DNA of 47,125 nt from Candidatus Methanoperedens nitratireducens (GTDB lineage: Archaea; Halobacteriota; Methanosarcinia; Methanosarcinales; Methanoperedenaceae), in the NCBI RefSeq assembly GCF_000685155.1, contig NZ_JMIY01000007.1:189816-236940 (forward strand), read 5' to 3'. Every line of letters starts with the position of its first letter. The first letter of the stretch is position 1. The notes under the pieces are model-generated. The model had not been told where the DNA came from. It worked only from the letters and a program-made list of their open reading frames with translations, and ran no database searches. The translations under genes were made by a program, and so were the position numbers. Positions 29,237-47,125 of this stretch are shown here, piece by piece.

Positions 29237-29968
29237 CTATAGCAAAAATAGTATCCCATCATAAATAAATCTCAAACTTATAAGTGCAATTGCACCGAGC
29301 ACAAGTCGTCTGAATGCACTTTGTGGAATCTTATAAACAATTTTTTTACCGGTATAAGAACCGGCAATGGCAATTATAAAAAGGAATGGAAGATAAACAT
29401 AAAATCGTGGCTCAAGGAATCCGCTTCCAAAATATATAGGAATTCTAGTCATATCTACTGCCAGCGCAATAGCTGCAGCCGTTGCAATGTAAACGGTTTT
29501 CTTCAAGTTAAAAGCTGAAAGGAAAGCGCCTCTTAAAGCTCCGCCAGTGCCAATTAAACCTGCCAGGAATCCAGATAAACCTCCTCCAATAACCGCATTT
29601 TTATTTGAAGGTTTGAATTTAAAATCTGGTTTCACAATCGATGTAATTGAGAAGACAAGTAAAAAGACACCCAAAACTAATTTTAACACATCCTGTGGAG
29701 TATAGTTCACTAACAGAGCGCCAATCACAGTTAAGATTATGCTGGGTATACCAAAAATCAAAATTAACTTTTTGTCCAGCCCATGCCTGAAAAACGTTAT
29801 TCTGCCAAGATTACCAAATATGTGGAAAAAGGCAACAAGGGTCAATGCTGTTTTGAAGTCCACAAAAAATAAAGCAAGAGGTAAAAATATAGTTGAAGAA
29901 CCAAATCCCACAATAGTTCCAATCACTTCTGCTATGAAAGCTGAAATGAAGAACAATAATTCTGCCAT
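29237..29968 (-). CDS. TauE/SafE family membrane exporter
   Basis: 243 residues, about eight membrane helices, no cytoplasmic domain of note. The family repeats are visible: GFGSSTIFLPLALFFVDFKTAL in the first half and GGGLSGFLAGLIGTGGALRGAF in the second. TauE/SafE proteins move sulfite, sulfonates or other anions out of the cell. The C-terminal LVLGAIALISLRFIYDG is typical. It lies just 3' of attC-like site A, at the end of the cassette array, and could be the last cassette or the flanking chromosome. Confidence 0.85.
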   Translation of the reverse strand: MAELLFFISAFIAEVIGTIVGFGSSTIFLPLALFFVDFKTALTLVAFFHIFGNLGRITFFRHGLDKKLILIFGIPSIILTVIGALLVNYTPQDVLKLVLGVFLLVFSITSIVKPDFKFKPSNKNAVIGGGLSGFLAGLIGTGGALRGAFLSAFNLKKTVYIATAAAIALAVDMTRIPIYFGSGFLEPRFYVYLPFLFIIAIAGSYTGKKIVYKIPQSAFRRLVLGAIALISLRFIYDGILFLL

Positions 29969-30031: not shown

Positions 30032-30086
30032 ACTTAACGTATGTCATATCTGAAGTCCCGGGGGAGCCAGATACGCTCTGTTAGGC
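30032..30086 (-). other. attC-like site A
   Basis: Minus strand: R'' box GCCTAAC (30086-30080) and R' core GTTAAGT (30038-30032). Both match the integron consensus RYYYAAC/GTTRRRY exactly. The TATCTG and CAGATA arms between them pair, giving a two-part stem with unpaired bases. The site is 55 nt. The core is followed by GAAATC, as in sites C and D. Confidence 0.6.
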
Positions 30087-30117
30087 GATGGATTTTGCCC
30101 ATTCATTTTGCTGATGT

Positions 30118-30315
30118 TCATCTCGTTAATTTTTCAATCAATTTTCTTCCTCTGCTTATCATGGCAGGACTGCCTGATTTCATCAGCTCTTTAAGTTTCT
30201 TGATTGAGAAAAATCTTTCGCCTAACGGCTGGCGTGTATGCGATGTTCCGCCGAAGGCGGAAATTTGGGTGAGCGATCGAAGGGAACGAACCGCAGTTAC
30301 CACAGCAATCACCAT
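30118..30315 (-). other. Small cassette-sized interval between attC-like sites A and B
   Basis: Only 133 bp separate sites A and B. The minus strand carries a short reading frame ending near 30118, with a helical tail (KKLKELMKSGSPAMISRGRKL). Its N-terminal part runs through site B, so a start inside the cassette would be needed. I cannot tell whether a peptide is made. It may be the remnant of a truncated cassette gene. Confidence 0.3.
30220..30302 (-). other. attC-like site B
   Basis: Minus strand: R' core GTTAGGC at 30226-30220 matches GTTRRRY. The outer R'' box is degenerate (TGGTAAC), though TAAC still pairs with GTTA. A perfect 7-bp hairpin, TTCCGCC-GAA-GGCGGAA, fills the centre. The site begins 28 bp after the stop of the 478-residue protein gene, where a cassette attC should be. 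Confidence 0.55.
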
Positions 30316-30329
30316 AATGCCAGTTTCTT

Positions 30330-31766
30330 TTATAGTTCTCTTAACTCCTCCAGAAGTGCAGGACGTTTCTTAAATTCTACTTTTAAATTGGAAAAACGCT
30401 GTTCCCATCTCGATTCTTCATTTAATATATCGATATAAATGTGTTTTACCATCCCCAGATATCTTGCTGCGGTACGATATGTTCCTCTGTTACCATTCTG
30501 GATGTTACTATATGCTTTTTGCCAGTAATATTCAATGATATCTTCTGGGAACTCTTCTTTTAACCGTTTTGCGAACTCATCAAAGTTGTATTCTTTTTCA
30601 AACACAAATCCGATGCCAGGTCGTTTTTTGGGTGGATTTAATAATATGTTTACCACTTCTTTTTTCATGTTTTTATCAAGACATATTCGTATATAGTCTT
30701 CCAGGTCTTTCCCTCGAACTTCCTGGATAATTTTCGGCTCGATATCTTTCCAATCTGCCTCAACCATGAACTGTTTCATTTTATTGTAGTGCGCATATGA
30801 TCTCACTTCGGGTATATATCCGGCTGCTTTCACATACTCGAATGCTTTTAGAAGTACTCTTTTTGCGTTTTCATAATCGTTCTCTGCTTTATAATATTCA
30901 AATAATCTATCCAGCATCTCTTTTTCGTCGCTTTTTTTCTTGATCGCGTACTGTACGACACGCTCCAGATTAGCGAGATCTCTGCTTTTTGCATAATGAT
31001 CAGACAAAAATTCAAACAATTCCGTCAGTCGCCCATCTCCTTTTAATAATCCCTCTTCTGCTATTTCCACGGCTTTCTTTCGCTCGCCTTTCTGGATATA
31101 AAATTCTGCCAGATCCCAGTAATCCATACCATAGTGGAGATCCTCTTTCCGCATTTTCAAATATGCATCATTATCCTTTAGATGTTTTTTCTGGATATCC
31201 ATGATCAGGTCTCTTCTCCACTCCGTTGGTCTTTCGTCAAGTTTTTTCACAAGATATTGCCATTCTTCTTTTGTCTTACAGAGTGTGAAGCATATATCCA
31301 TCATCTTATCCTCAAATCCGGAGTTCCCAATATTATACTCCTCAAAGAGTTCATCCATAAATTCAAATTTCGCCTCTGTTGAGATCTCACCTTTTTTAGC
31401 CAGTTCCTCGATATCATCAAGATAACTATAGCATTCACTTTCTTCGTCTTCCGGTCCACCACCATATTTGTTGAATTGTGAAATAATGGATTTAGCATCA
31501 TACCAATGTTCCCATAATAGTTCCTCGTTCAAAGCTCTTCTTTCTTGTTTTCTGTTAATATCTTCCATATCTTCTGACTTGTCCATAAACCATTTCAGAA
31601 TCGATTTCCGAACTTCCGGGTTTTTATTCAACAAAGTCTGCACTAAATCATACATGTCTTTGTTACTGAGAGTTCTCAGCTTTTCATCTAAAGAAAAATC
31701 CTGAATTTGTATCTCCTTTTCTTTTCGATATTCTTTATGCGATGGCACAGTATAACTCCTTCTCAT
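30330..31766 (-). CDS. Helical-repeat protein resembling the C-terminal part of SWIM zinc-finger proteins
   Basis: 478 residues, almost all alpha-helical. Residues 20-65 (LDEKLRTLSNKDMYDLVQTLL, NPEVRKSILKWF) match the segment that follows the zinc finger in SWIM-family proteins. TPR-like helices occupy about 210-330, and the last 60 residues (YRTAARYLGMVKHIYIDIL, RPALLEELREL) match the family's end. The SWIM zinc finger itself is absent, with no CxCx..CxH motif upstream in the same gene. The start overlaps a stop codon of an upstream frame (ATGA). It belongs to the cassette between sites B and C. Function is unknown; related proteins bind DNA. Confidence 0.6.
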   Translation of the reverse strand: MRRSYTVPSHKEYRKEKEIQIQDFSLDEKLRTLSNKDMYDLVQTLLNKNPEVRKSILKWFMDKSEDMEDINRKQERRALNEELLWEHWYDAKSIISQFNKYGGGPEDEESECYSYLDDIEELAKKGEISTEAKFEFMDELFEEYNIGNSGFEDKMMDICFTLCKTKEEWQYLVKKLDERPTEWRRDLIMDIQKKHLKDNDAYLKMRKEDLHYGMDYWDLAEFYIQKGERKKAVEIAEEGLLKGDGRLTELFEFLSDHYAKSRDLANLERVVQYAIKKKSDEKEMLDRLFEYYKAENDYENAKRVLLKAFEYVKAAGYIPEVRSYAHYNKMKQFMVEADWKDIEPKIIQEVRGKDLEDYIRICLDKNMKKEVVNILLNPPKKRPGIGFVFEKEYNFDEFAKRLKEEFPEDIIEYYWQKAYSNIQNGNRGTYRTAARYLGMVKHIYIDILNEESRWEQRFSNLKVEFKKRPALLEELREL

Positions 31767-31844
31767 TTATCCCGCAAAGAAAATTCAACGACACGTTGTA
31801 TTCCTTTCTTTCCGACACCGAGTGTGATGGGATTAATGTTCTAT

Positions 31845-32027
31845 TCAATCAATCCCTCCATCAAGCTCTGATGGATCAATCTCATAACTAACATAAAGTC
31901 CAGGTTTTATTTTGCCTTTTTTGGGAAGTTCAGGCAGTTTACTCAGTAATTCTTTTGTTCCACTTTCTTCTAATGCCCAATCCTGTAAATCTATAGCCTG
32001 ACCTCTACTAATTCGCCATCGAGACAT
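31845..32027 (-). CDS. Small hypothetical cassette protein
   Basis: 60 residues, starting MSRWRISRGQAIDLQDWALEESG. It is rich in charged residues and Pro/Lys in the middle and has no known motif. It lies between attC-like site C and the SWIM-like gene on the same strand, so it is the first gene of that cassette. I do not recognise it. A small antitoxin or an immunity-type partner is possible but unsupported. Confidence 0.45.
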   Translation of the reverse strand: MSRWRISRGQAIDLQDWALEESGTKELLSKLPELPKKGKIKPGLYVSYEIDPSELDGGID

Positions 32028-32078
32028 GGTTATTTACTTCTTTGTTTATTATCCTTAAATCTTTGCCCACACGATTTC

Positions 32079-32162
32079 ACTTAACATACGCTCATATCTG
32101 AAGTCCCGACCAAGTATTTGAGTCGGAGCGCAACGCCGCAGCAAGATATGAGCATGTTATCC
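32079..32162 (-). other. attC-like site C (best stem)
   Basis: Minus strand: R' core GTTAAGT at 32085-32079 matches GTTRRRY. The outer arm TAACATGCTCATATCT pairs with AGATATGAGC-GT-ATGTTA, a 16-bp stem with a two-base bulge on one side only. Such one-sided bulges are what integrases use to choose the attC strand. A further CCGAC/GTCGG hairpin lies inside. The R'' box is degenerate (GGATAAC). The site starts 52 bp after the stop of the nuclease-EVE gene. Confidence 0.65.
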
Positions 32163-32213
32163 GACCCGAAGGGCAAGATTGTAAAGCAAGCGCAGGGGCG
32201 TGAGTAAGGTCGA

Positions 32214-33209
32214 TCAAATCCTCTTTGTTAATTCATTCCAAATTTTATTCCCAGATTCTCTATCTACAGAAAAACATGTCATCATAAATCTATAATCAAT
32301 ACTTGTAATAGTTTTAATTTCAGTTGCAGTAAGTGGCTTTTTGATCTCGGAAAAAGACTTTAATTCCACATAATATTCTTCATCTATATCTTTAGGTTTA
32401 CCAGGGTAGTGGGATTTCTTAAGATCACTTTTCACTGTTCCCCTGGCAACTATACCGATACCAGATTGATAAAGAAAAACATAGTCTCCCCTTTGCAATC
32501 TTTTTACGTGATTCTTCCAGGGATGATAATAAGCTGCAGCTTTTTTATTTTCCAACATATCCTTATGGCATAAAGGGTTGTTACTATAGTTTGTATTTAC
32601 AATATAATAGCCCTCTTCAATATCTTCAAATGGATCGTCTACTGTTTTATAAGTGTTAAATTCCAAATAGATCTCACCAGATGTTGTTTGATAAATTCGA
32701 TAAATCCATCCTTTGATTTCTAATCCTTGTTTCTTCCAGTATAATATAGCTTCTCTCGTCTTGATATCAATTCCATTTGTCAAAACGATGTAATGTTGCT
32801 TCTTATTAAAATCACCCTCACAAATATTCGCGTCCGGAAATCTTTTTCTATGTGCCTCAATTAGGGTTTCCCTCGAGAAATTGGAAAATAAATTATTCAA
32901 TTGTTCATAATCATACTGGCCAAAAATCTGTCCATATCGCAATACTTGTAGCACATTAGAACTTTGAGTCTCCCATGCTTTTAGCTCAAAAATATAAAGA
33001 GATCCCTTCTCATCTATAGCCATTAAATCAGGTTCCTCTTGCCACCTTCTTGATTGCATTATTACTAATAGTTCCTCTTCTCTAATGACTCTATCAAGGT
33101 TTTCAAATAATAATTTTTGCAATTTTCTTTCATCCCAATTTAGATCCTTTAGATACACTCTTTTAACAATGTCTATGCACTCGTTTTTTGTATCCAACTT
33201 AAATAGCAT
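32214..33209 (-). CDS. PD-(D/E)XK nuclease fused to an EVE/PUA-like domain
   Basis: 331 residues. The N-terminal domain has the nuclease core EPD (Asp61) ... IFELKAW (Glu75-Leu-Lys77), like NucS/DUF91-type enzymes. From residue 201, YYIVNTNYSN through YHPW and RGDYVFLYQSG to GIVARG gives an EVE/PUA-like beta-barrel, a domain known to read modified bases. Such a pairing suggests a modification-dependent (type IV-like) restriction enzyme; this is inference. The gene lies alone between attC-like sites D and C, as a single cassette. It starts 40 bp from site D and has no obvious promoter of its own. Confidence 0.75.
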   Translation of the reverse strand: MLFKLDTKNECIDIVKRVYLKDLNWDERKLQKLLFENLDRVIREEELLVIMQSRRWQEEPDLMAIDEKGSLYIFELKAWETQSSNVLQVLRYGQIFGQYDYEQLNNLFSNFSRETLIEAHRKRFPDANICEGDFNKKQHYIVLTNGIDIKTREAILYWKKQGLEIKGWIYRIYQTTSGEIYLEFNTYKTVDDPFEDIEEGYYIVNTNYSNNPLCHKDMLENKKAAAYYHPWKNHVKRLQRGDYVFLYQSGIGIVARGTVKSDLKKSHYPGKPKDIDEEYYVELKSFSEIKKPLTATEIKTITSIDYRFMMTCFSVDRESGNKIWNELTKRI

Positions 33210-33248
33210 TTTTCACCTCGAATTAATTTTGATCTTACTCACGATTTC

Positions 33249-33312
33249 GCTTAACGACTGAGCGTATCTGGAGTTCCGAGCGAAGCGAGGAATTTGGGCG
33301 GTGTGACTAAGC
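33249..33312 (-). other. attC-like site D
   Basis: Minus strand: R' core GTTAAGC at 33255-33249 matches GTTRRRY and is followed by GAAATCG as in site C. GCTTA at the outer end pairs with TAAGC, but the R'' box is otherwise degenerate (GCTTAGT). The centre contains the CTCGCTTCGCTCG type of repeat common in integron attC loops. The site lies about 50 bp from the recombinase relic. Confidence 0.5.
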
Positions 33313-33361
33313 TCTGAAATATCTGGCATTAATGTCATCTATACCACCATTTGCCTGAACT

Positions 33362-33536
33362 TCATTCATTTTTTACCTCTGGATTTAATAAAAAGTCCAG
33401 TGAACTTTTTATCTCACCTAAATCTCTATATGAATATATATATTTCTGTGGTCTTACTGCTTTTATGCCCCAACAGTTCTTGAATATATCGAAAGGCTGT
33501 ACCATTTTCTATATTATCAGAATATCTACATCTGAG
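33362..33536 (-). pseudogene. Relic of a tyrosine recombinase C-terminus
   Basis: Minus strand, two frames. The first reads ENGTAFRYIQELLGHKSSK and TTEIY, which holds the conserved His of GHKS and the catalytic Tyr of EIY. After one frameshift it continues RDLGEIKSSLDFLLNPE and stops at 33362. The preceding LRCRYSDN looks like a damaged LRHSYATH box, which held the second conserved Arg. Nothing recognisable remains upstream. Such ends are typical of Xer/IntI-like integrases, so this may be the array's own integrase. It reads in the same direction as the cassettes. Confidence 0.75.
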
Positions 33537-33611
33537 GCATAAAATAAAAACTATTACATCATCATGGCCAGAATAATCTAAATTGTTGCACAATATCAAG
33601 AGGTTTAAAAC

Positions 33612-34027
33612 TTGTCAGAAAAAAATAGTTTGATCGAAAAAGTCGTGGACAATGCCATATCCGCTCAGAATGCAGCAGTATAGGCAATAAAGACCCACAG
33701 ATACGAGCATTTCCTGCTTGAGCACTCACGTCCCTATGTGAACGTCATCAAAGGCTTTGAGTGTTCATTGGAGCAATCAAAAGAAGCTATGGACTTATAC
33801 CAGAAAAGCCTGCTGCTCCATTATGATATCCTCGCCTCCCTCACAAAAACCATAACACCTCTGGACACTGCCTTTCTTGAGTGACAGCAGACGCCCGTCA
33901 CTCTTGAGATAATGTATGTATTCGACCCCTTGCGCCCGTGGAGATGTGCAAGAACTGCGCCACCTCAAGATACTTACCAGCGAAATGTGATTACTGCGTA
34001 TCTCCCGGATTGAACAGCACGCTCTGA
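33612..34027 (+). pseudogene. Broken gene for a helical protein with a C-terminal zinc ribbon
   Basis: From a TTG at 33612, preceded by GAGGT, the frame reads SEKNSLIEKVVDNAISAQNA and is broken by TAG at 33681-33683. It resumes with RYEHFLLEHSRPYVNVIKGF and is broken again by TGA at 33882-33884. After a +2 shift near 33930 it ends with a zinc ribbon, CKNCATSRYLPAKCDYC, and a stop at 34027. Three lesions in 416 bp mark a pseudogene. The family is not recognised. It is convergent with the Vms1-like gene. Confidence 0.6.
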
Positions 34028-34031
34028 TCAG

Positions 34032-34973
34032 TCACAACCCATACATCCTCACTGACATGATCTCTTTTAGCAGTTTCTCAGGCTGGTAATCCATTAGTTG
34101 ATTATTTATTATCAAAGGATAGTCGTATCCTTCCAGGATCATTCTTATTAATTTGCCCTCCCCGCCCGCAATAACATACTGTATATCCTTATGCTTCTCA
34201 ATTATCGTGCCAAGCGCTGCCCTTACCTTATCTGCATGGTGCCTGATATCCTCCTCGACCAGGCTCTGGAAGCGCTTCTGGCTCCAGCCCCCTTTTGAGT
34301 GTTTCCCCATCACACTGCTTCGTACTATATCATGCTCCACGAAAGTGTCCTGCTCCAGTATCCCTATAAATGTCTCACCTGCATGGGCATTGATCACCAG
34401 TACTTTATCGCTTATGAGGCTGTTTTTTAATGGTTCTATATTAAAGCGCCGATCAAGTGAGTACTCTGAGTGCGATACAGGAAAAACAGGGATAACCACT
34501 AATTTTACAATCCCGATTGTATCATAAAAAATAACCTTGCCTGTTTGCGAGTCTATTTTCTCGATAAGATACAGCGCAGAGCTTTCGATCTGGTCCTCTA
34601 TATCAGATATAATATTCTTAAGAATATCATCCCTTGCAAGATAAATAGTTATCAGAGTGGAAGTTTTCGATTGTAACGATTCAAGTAAAAAAAGAACATT
34701 CTCAAGTTTATTCCTGGATAAACTCTCAGAAAAATGGAAATTCAATTCACCGGATGATTCTTCTTTAAGTCTCTGTACCTCGTTCTCAAGCGAAGAGATT
34801 CTCTGCCTTGCCTCATTTAACTCACGGTCAACTTCCTGTTTGGTTGCTATTGTTCTCTTTGTTTTTTCACTCTTTTTCTCAAGCTGGAGCAGAAGTTTTT
34901 TGTTCTCTTCTTCAAGCTGCGTTATTCTTGCCTGCAGGGATTCTATCTTATCCTTCTTAAATAAATCAAACAA
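34032..34973 (-). CDS. Vms1/ANKZF1-like eRF1-type peptidyl-tRNA hydrolase
   Basis: 313 residues. A coiled coil covers about 8-75, followed by an eRF1-like domain. The loop GKHSKGGWSQKRFQ (Gln232) matches the catalytic Gln-bearing loop of Vms1 and ANKZF1, with the basic GKHSKGG context. Vms1-type proteins release nascent chains from peptidyl-tRNA on split, stalled ribosomes; an archaeal homologue would do the same in ribosome quality control. It overlaps the Brix gene by 8 nt, so it is the last gene of the exosome superoperon and is probably translated with it. Confidence 0.78.
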   Translation of the reverse strand: MFDLFKKDKIESLQARITQLEEENKKLLLQLEKKSEKTKRTIATKQEVDRELNEARQRISSLENEVQRLKEESSGELNFHFSESLSRNKLENVLFLLESLQSKTSTLITIYLARDDILKNIISDIEDQIESSALYLIEKIDSQTGKVIFYDTIGIVKLVVIPVFPVSHSEYSLDRRFNIEPLKNSLISDKVLVINAHAGETFIGILEQDTFVEHDIVRSSVMGKHSKGGWSQKRFQSLVEEDIRHHADKVRAALGTIIEKHKDIQYVIAGGEGKLIRMILEGYDYPLIINNQLMDYQPEKLLKEIMSVRMYGL

Positions 34974-44875: not shown

Positions 44876-45443
44876 GTAGAGTAAAGAGGAGGTCTTTCAA
44901 CCTCCGCCTCCTCATCAAACTGCACGGACGGATTTCCCGTATGCAGCTTTCGTCTGGCTTTTCCCTTTGCAAGATAGACTCAATTCTGATCAAATAGCAA
45001 TGGCTAAAGAACTTGGGATGAATCCAAAGAAGTTTGGAAGTTTAGCACCTAACAAATCAGAACCATGGAAGGGACCTTTGGGGGAATTCATCGAAGAATG
45101 TTATTGGAAAAGATTCAAAAAACGAGAGCTATTTAAAGATTAAAGCCTACAAGCGGTCACTCGCCGCCATCCCTGCCATGATCACCCCATCGCTCACTAC
45201 TCTGCTCAAGTTTCCGTCGTGACTGGGGACGTCACATCACGATAAGGCCACTTCTGGTTCACTTGCTGTTCAGGGCTGTGGTTTACGATACTTGGAACTC
45301 CGCACCATGCTTCACAGCATCGCACTTCCCGTTCTCTTCATTCGAGAGCAGACTCGAATGGTGGGATTTCAACCCCAGAGACATTTTGTTATTATTTTCT
45401 GATGTCTTATTTGTCATACCTTCTCTCTTATGTTTTGAGGCAC
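44876..45443 (-). mobile_element. Degenerate group II intron without reverse transcriptase (copy 2)
   Basis: The 3' end has a complete domain V at 44917-44949: lower stem AAGCTGCA with TGCAGTTT, the AGC catalytic triad, a bulge, and an upper stem with GAAA loop. A domain VI-like hairpin and a ...CTAC end follow at 44876. The 5' end GTGCC is at 45443, and structured sequence reaches to about 45150. Where domain IV should carry the reverse transcriptase there is only a reversed gene fragment (44970-45143). The whole is 568 nt. Ribozyme activity cannot be judged. A hairpin (CGAAAT/ATTTCG, 45459-45472) just upstream of the 5' end resembles class C targets. Confidence 0.6.
44970..45143 (+). pseudogene. 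Fragment of a conserved small bacterial-type protein inside the intron
   Basis: An open frame of about 57 codons (from 44970; ATG at 45000) reads RLNSDQIAMAKELGMNPKKFG, then EPWKGPLGEFIEECYWKRF. This matches the end of a widespread small conserved protein (AKELGMNPKKFG ... EPWK.PL..FIE..Y). The 5' part of the gene is missing; the fragment lies antisense inside the intron remnant. It probably was cut off when the intron or another element inserted. Confidence 0.55.
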
Positions 45444-46943: not shown

Positions 46944-47125
46944 GTGCGACAAGAAAGCTATGCTATGAATTGCCAACGAGCTACCCCTTCCATCTGGGGT
47001 AATCTTACCGGGATGTGCTTTTGCAGTAATGCAGAGGTGCAAAGCTCCTGGGACAATGTGAAGACATCTAAAAATCCAATTTAGACAATTTGCTAAGATA
47101 AGGATGTCATGGAGAAGTTAAAATG

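Follow-up and report, generated by a model that had tools for sequence, protein, structure and literature searches.

The stretch of DNA analysed here, referred to as the window, comprises 47,125 nucleotides of the 3.2-Mb genome of Candidatus Methanoperedens nitratireducens (G000; 10 contigs), in which it occupies positions 189816-236940 of contig C7 (NZ_JMIY01000007.1). Read along the minus strand, the locus under study contains a relic of a tyrosine recombinase gene, a site called D, a gene for a 331-aa protein, site C, a small open reading frame (ORF) together with a gene for a 478-aa protein, site B, site A and a gene for a TauE/SafE-family transporter. The four sites resemble attC, the recombination site that ends the cassettes of integrons. 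Judged from its sequence and that of its relatives, the locus is probably what is left, in degraded form, of an integron-like platform for cassettes, and the platform would belong to a class distinct from the integrons that work with an IntI integrase.

The R′ cores of the sites lie on the minus strand at the places given by a first-pass annotation of the window, namely GTTAAGT at 30032-30038 (A), GTTAGGC at 30220-30226 (B), GTTAAGT at 32079-32085 (C) and GTTAAGC at 33249-33255 (D), and the positions that it gave for the genes relative to the sites were also correct. The motif GTTAAGYGAAATC, for which a genome search had been proposed, has three exact occurrences in the 3.2 Mb, all of them at A, C and D. 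As a search motif on its own in related genomes it was discarded, its matches being mostly chance ones in coding sequence. A nucleotide profile of 82 positions, built independently from 68 sites of other genomes with the window and the sister species (G024) left out, matched site C with E=1.6e-12, D with 9.6e-6, A with 1.1e-5 and B with 8.1e-5, and it gave no further match with E<1 in the window.

Site C (32079..32162, minus strand) is an intact attC with R″ GGATAAC, L″ GCTCATATCT, L′ AGATATGAGC and R′ GTTAAGT. Its fold is more stable than expected (z=-3.9; 1 of 200 shuffles was as good), and it was the sole match of a structure-only scan of the window. With R2, a covariance model made from nine relatives of site C, it scored 87.8 bits, but site C is itself a training sequence of that model. 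Site A (30032..30086, minus strand), the last attC, is 55 nt long and has a short loop, the arms GCGTATCTG and CAGATAT and the R′ core GTTAAGT; the L arms pair, the overall fold has z=-0.2, and R2 matched it with 33.5 bits (E=1.9e-4). Site B (30220..30301, minus strand), with R′ GTTAGGC and a degenerate R″ GGTAAC, appears to lack most of the L″ arm and gave no match with R2; its fold (z=-2.1) is due to a central hairpin and not to the R and L arms. Site D (33249..33301, minus strand) is the 3′ half of an attC (CGCCCAAATT...CAGATACGCTCAGTC GTTAAGC), which appears fused to an attI leader, and it has no attC fold (z=+0.7). B and D fit the profile in their 3′ half only, from position 33 and position 35, respectively, to position 81 of 82, so that the 5′ arm of both is lost. 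The earlier statement that the outer arms pair thus holds for C and in part for A, and fails for B and D. R1, a narrow covariance model from 17 class 1 attC sites of plasmids, gave site A as its best match in the window at a non-significant level (10.9 bits, E=1.6) and missed site C; the covariance-model check proposed for the locus gave matches once a family-specific model was used, the class 1 model alone giving no significant match.

The gene relic that had been noticed before site D exists and is the C-terminus of a tyrosine recombinase. It is a frameshifted remnant, with about 50 recognisable residues, of the type of recombinase that accompanies such arrays in relatives (33362..33550, minus strand, upstream end approximate; TIGR02249, E=8.5e-4), and it shares 71% identity with the recombinase C-terminus of Methanosarcinales archaeon ex4572_44 (G048), an order-level relative. 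The XerA of the host itself (on contig C3) was rejected as the source of the relic, which is 50% identical to it but 71% identical to the enzyme of G048. Between the recombinase stop and attI stands a leader remnant (33320..33361, minus strand, by alignment), whose homology to the leader of a locus in G006 (L093) ends at GCCAGATA; the attC half of site D starts about 20 nt beyond. A deletion, we infer, fused attI with the first attC of the window to give site D. No full-length member of the array recombinase family was found in G000, and the array there is therefore probably frozen. As far as its sequence tells, the array in the window is degraded, B and D being without their 5′ arm and the recombinase being a frameshifted tail; only C, and perhaps A, could recombine now, and for this the enzyme would have to be provided in trans. 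Elsewhere on the same contig, at about 99-109 kb (L025 1999-9559, about 101.0-108.6 kb), we observed a second integron-like remnant, in which a recombinase tail and a degenerate attI accompany a type I restriction operon; an attC lies about 90 nt past the last gene of that operon.

A blastn search with site C revealed relatives across four families of the order. In a set of 150 genomes of the order, representing 24 genera, R2 matched in 33 genomes and 13 genera, with two weak matches only in family f5, which serves as negative control; R1 found no relative of the family. The consensus of 71 matches is RYYTAAC-A-GAGCGTATCTG...CGCCCAAATT...AACTT-CAGATACGCTC-GGAAC-GTTAnnY-GnAAT, which has the R″/L″/L′/R′ layout of an imperfect palindrome with a GTT core; in the window this layout is intact at C only, and partly at A. 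The sites have 11 contiguous L pairs, and in 70 of 71 the spacing is 1-2 nt between R″ and L″ and 4-6 nt between L′ and R′. Extrahelical L″ bases and the central-spacer geometry known from attC were not found: the spacer is present but strongly asymmetric, and an extrahelical base could still lie beyond the 11 L pairs.

The L arms of 69 distinct sites change together. In an alignment that was fitted to the model, and hence is biased in favour of pairing, 90.7% of the L-arm cells were paired against 75.3% in shuffles, and double changes were seen in 147 cells against 50. The covariation score of 0.402 (0.148 in shuffles) was reached by none of 500 shuffles, and it was at most 0.11 when the columns were slid by one to three. 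A model-free scan of 340 kb for TAAC, 11-bp complementarity and GTTR gave 16 matches on the strand of the recombinase and none on the opposite strand, with 1.7 expected per strand. Since the L arms covary, folding of attC is supported. These data bear on the idea that modules are exchanged in Xer style on double-stranded sites, where the GTTA core and its flanking dyads would be the site and a single-strand hairpin would be unneeded. The model for this is the pdif modules of Acinetobacter plasmids, whose mobility depends on XerC/D and whose sites are 28 bp long, double-stranded and dif-like, stand in alternating orientation and use the host XerCD. As in pdif modules, genes at the loci studied here are flanked by Xer-type recombination sites and would be moved without a dedicated IntI; unlike in pdif modules, the sites are hairpins in one orientation, with a recombinase and an attI of their own. 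Arms that change yet keep pairing across a loop of 25-60 nt are hard to explain if only a short double-stranded core is recognised, and the R″-L″ half of attC is kept in intact sites. On the other side, the dyads of attI fit a double-stranded site, and the enzyme, described below, is of the XerA family and without I2, the domain regarded as the novelty through which IntI came to act on single strands (PMC7790495). Weighing these points, we give exchange on double-stranded sites a limited, though real, chance.

The sites are tied to gene ends, as had been supposed for the window, and are not widespread in G000, where only about four matches were found. Of 69 sites, 47 lie within 120 nt 3′ of an ORF of at least 70 aa on the same strand, against five for an antisense ORF. 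Pairwise homologies between sites stop within -6 to +20 of the core in 277 of 363 cases, suggesting that attC is a module and that the DNA past it is unshared. Two G036 loci (L190 and L200) with 97% identical DNA after the core were not used as a case of cassette sharing, since a DDE transposase gene follows and an insertion sequence at attC explains the identity equally well. A 169-kb viral or prophage contig (IMG/VR 3300043411_001575; L286 962-5150) contains five or six attC-like hairpins of the same geometry, all on one strand and with longer loops.

In intact relatives a conserved attI lies 3′ of the recombinase gene and is followed by cassettes; each cassette is made up of a gene or an operon and is closed by a same-strand attC. 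The attI consists of one to three ATATRCGAA-n-TTCGGATATA dyads and ends at a GTTRnnY GnAAT core, usually 40-180 nt past the point where the recombinase match stops; this was found at no fewer than 30 of 40 loci, many of which carry only a fragment of the recombinase, a somewhat generous count because the core was selected by score. An attI thus adjoins the recombinase gene in relatives, whereas that of the window is degenerate and fused to an attC half. In G048 the recombinase gene is followed by the core GTTAAGTGAAATC, identical to the cores of sites A and C. We found 39 relatives of the recombinase in named genomes, many of them 60-74% identical, in Methanosarcinales, Methanophagales, Methanocellales, Archaeoglobales, Altiarchaeota and several bacterial phyla. 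With model R3 these 39 loci gave 31 attC matches at E≤0.1, all 31 on the strand of the recombinase and 30 of them downstream of it; as a rough control, 80 viral loci near more distant recombinases (782 kb) gave seven weak matches, five of them in one contig. Two further IMG/VR contigs (L272 and L273) carry recombinases that share 51-53% identity with that of the arrays, and two or three attC-like hairpins lie downstream of each.

A dispersed RNA or DNA hairpin at the 3′ ends of genes, such as a terminator, a REP-like element or a MITE, would account for stem-loops 3′ of genes and for the several solitary sites of G036, and no recombination site would then be present. It does not account for the strict linkage to a recombinase gene on the same strand, for the conservation of the non-pairing TAAC/GTTA ends, for the GnAAT extension common to attC and attI, or for the exchange of cargo with a break at site A described below, and an Rfam scan gave no family at sites A-D. 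We consider a mere hairpin element very improbable.

The enzymes of the arrays pass the archaeal XerA model NF040815 (recomb_XerA_Arch) with 247.6 and 242.2 bits at a cut-off of 220, and fail TIGR02249, the IntI model, with 228 and 215 bits at a cut-off of 265, the match being split in two stretches. In comparison with IntI1 and three true IntI of the same order, every array recombinase aligned across the region has a gap of 41 residues in place of the IntI-specific I2 domain; this comparison concerns the enzymes of relatives, the window keeping the C-terminal tail only. These matches and alignments place the recombinase in the archaeal XerA family, without the I2 domain. In a phylogenetic tree the IntI group (support 100/100) and the host XerA (100/98) both stand apart from the recombinases of the arrays; with divergent rows included, the latter occupy one side of a branch whose support is modest (67/61). 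The array family is not the single-copy host XerA acting at dif: G000 has a separate XerA of 281 aa (C3:117952-118743), and the array family is another branch, mobile between phyla. An AlphaFold model of the recombinase (pLDDT 76.5, pTM 0.58) has a generic tyrosine-recombinase fold that fits VchIntI (2A3V) and archaeal XerA (5HXY/4A8E) alike and does not discriminate between them. A class of integrons without I2 was assigned because the working appears integron-like while the enzymes fall outside IntI.

The locus could instead be a canonical archaeal integron as described by Ghaly et al. in 2022, with ordinary attC, a true IntI elsewhere or lost, and the Xer-type recombinase as a bystander. 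The anatomy of the sites is attC-like, as a canonical integron would have it, and an IntI above the TIGR02249 cut-off is present in three of the 150 genomes of the order, two of them in the same genus. Against this, none is present in G000; the IntI copies of G027 and G040 lie beside IS91-type transposases and that of G029 on a 3.4-kb contig, and R2 and R3 gave no linked attC array there. Moreover, many independent loci have attI and attC directly behind an I2-less recombinase and invariably on its strand, and the class 1 attC model and the family model do not find each other's sites. A canonical integron is accordingly an improbable reading of the locus. As a separate observation, at L143 (G040:C41) and L145 (G027:C5) IntI-like integrases stand next to IS91-type Y1/Y2 transposases in archaeal bins.

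The comparison with the sister species G024 shows a region (30048..33982) that differs between two syntenic flanks of 96.4-96.5% identity (blastn), with a length of 3.9 kb in the window and 0.95 kb in G024. Homology extends to position 30047 of the window, which lies inside site A beyond the R′ core, and begins again at 33983. The sole stretch shared inside the region is a C-type attC (81% identity), which in G024 stands after a different gene, of 212 aa; one type of attC is thus tied to different cargo at the same address. An 'empty site' was not found in other members of the genus, in all of which the DNA downstream of the conserved operon differs, the TauE gene being confined to the two species. 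The first-pass annotation had proposed an integron-like array, and this stands as regards the order of gene and attC in one orientation, the different cargo of the sister species and the recombinase and attI linked to the sites in relatives; it needs the corrections that the integron is not a canonical one, the linked recombinase family being without I2 and below the IntI cut-off, and that the array is degraded.

Several observations weigh against an integron-like platform. The right break between the window and G024 is at no recognisable site, and no pair of strains was caught with gain or excision of a single cassette. Several attC sites are solitary in the complete chromosome of G036. At many loci only a C-terminal fragment of the recombinase is found, a retention of the 3′ end of the gene that this reading does not account for. 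Most intact examples are metagenome bins, and some of the bacterial assignments may be due to misbinning. Finally, no XerA-type enzyme is known to act on folded single-strand sites. Contigs of G040, G044 and G056 contain numerous fragments of the array recombinase that consist of the C-terminus alone, and several of these still have attI and cassettes behind them.

With an integron-like platform as the preferred reading, one strand of attC would fold through the 11-bp L stem, and the recombinase would bind the stem and the R core and exchange a strand, after the G of GTTA, with the double-stranded attI. New cassettes would enter beside the recombinase gene, and the junction would be resolved by host replication, by analogy with integrons. 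Anatomy, covariation, orientation, linkage and the difference in cargo at the locus are observed, whereas catalysis by the array enzyme, the single-stranded substrate and the position of the cut are inferred parts of this scheme. Known attC have extrahelical L″ bases, and one of these, a G, sets the choice of strand (PMC2727003). Hypothetically, the lopsided spacer could replace extrahelical bases as the signal for strand choice, fitting an enzyme without I2.

Like the IntI integrons (class 1, the Vibrio superintegron and archaeal integrons), the arrays have a recombinase gene, an adjacent attI, cassettes that look promoter-less and all stand in one orientation, and a 3′ attC with the R″/L″/L′/R′ layout and a GTTRRRY-type core; as in the archaeal integrons, attI lies downstream of the integrase gene (PMC9668308). 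Unlike in IntI integrons, the recombinase is of the XerA family and without I2, the 11 bp of the L stem are uninterrupted and the extrahelical G that is conserved in the L″ box (PMC2727003) is missing, the central spacer has 1-2 nt on one side and 4-6 nt on the other, good pairing in the R box is limited to TAAC/GTTA, and GnAAT is conserved after the core. With XerA and XerC/XerD the array recombinase shares the protein family and the lack of I2, but it is linked to multiple hairpin sites and cargo and not to one dif.

Integrons are already known from archaea: Ghaly et al. reported them in 2022 in 75 archaeal metagenome-assembled genomes of nine phyla, with 539 attC and six IntI with the additional domain (PMC9668308). 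Acquisition of the I2 helix is regarded as the step that gave integron integrases single-strand recombination, with no intermediates known (PMC7790495). The insertion is not fully conserved in an integron-like subgroup studied by Smyshlyaev et al. (PMC8138268), so that members without it have already been seen, though not tied there to cassette arrays. Searches of open-licence full texts turned up no account of integrons in Methanoperedens or ANME archaea, and none of an integron class whose enzyme lacks I2. The combination of attC-like hairpins and a Xer enzyme without I2 would be either an intermediate to IntI or an independent solution. Our data suggest an overlooked class of integrons, often with anti-virus genes, across archaea and bacteria. 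We lean towards the view that it is a widespread second class, present in archaea, bacteria and some viral contigs, in which an XerA-type I2-less recombinase would assemble and shuffle mostly defence cassettes through folded single-strand attC without extrahelical bases. Such a class would be missed by searches for IntI and may explain part of the archaeal attC clusters 'lacking an integrase'; it could account for the 539 archaeal attC found with only six IntI (PMC9668308).

The first cassettes after attI in relatives include genes for an OLD/GajA-like ATPase, three SIR2-domain proteins, a type I methylase, a type II methylase, an AccI endonuclease and a PIN protein, and defence genes are found in many cassettes. 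The capture of cassettes is thereby connected with defence against phages in archaea that oxidise methane and alkanes. In the window, the 331-aa cassette protein (32214..33209, minus strand) has a C-terminal EVE domain (PF01878, 7e-6), and its N-terminal part matches the candidate defence family PDC-S11 (PADLOC, 5e-22). The 478-aa cassette protein (30330..31766, minus strand) is without confident family, with a sub-threshold Pfam match to Cut8 only and no PADLOC match; its cassette starts with the small ORF, a candidate of 60 aa read from the sequence (31845..32027, minus strand).

The flanks of the array are conserved. At its downstream end is the TauE/SafE-family transporter gene (29237..29968, minus strand; PF01925, 2e-34), whose product is 95% identical in G024 over residues 1-169; none of the remaining 29 members of the genus searched gave a match at E≤1e-30. 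On the right, a core operon shared by 28 of the 31 members of the genus compared ends with a VLRF1/eRF1-like gene (34032..34973, minus strand). Two group II intron matches (Rfam) also lie in the window, at 44876-44951 on the minus strand and at 46982-47092 on the plus strand.

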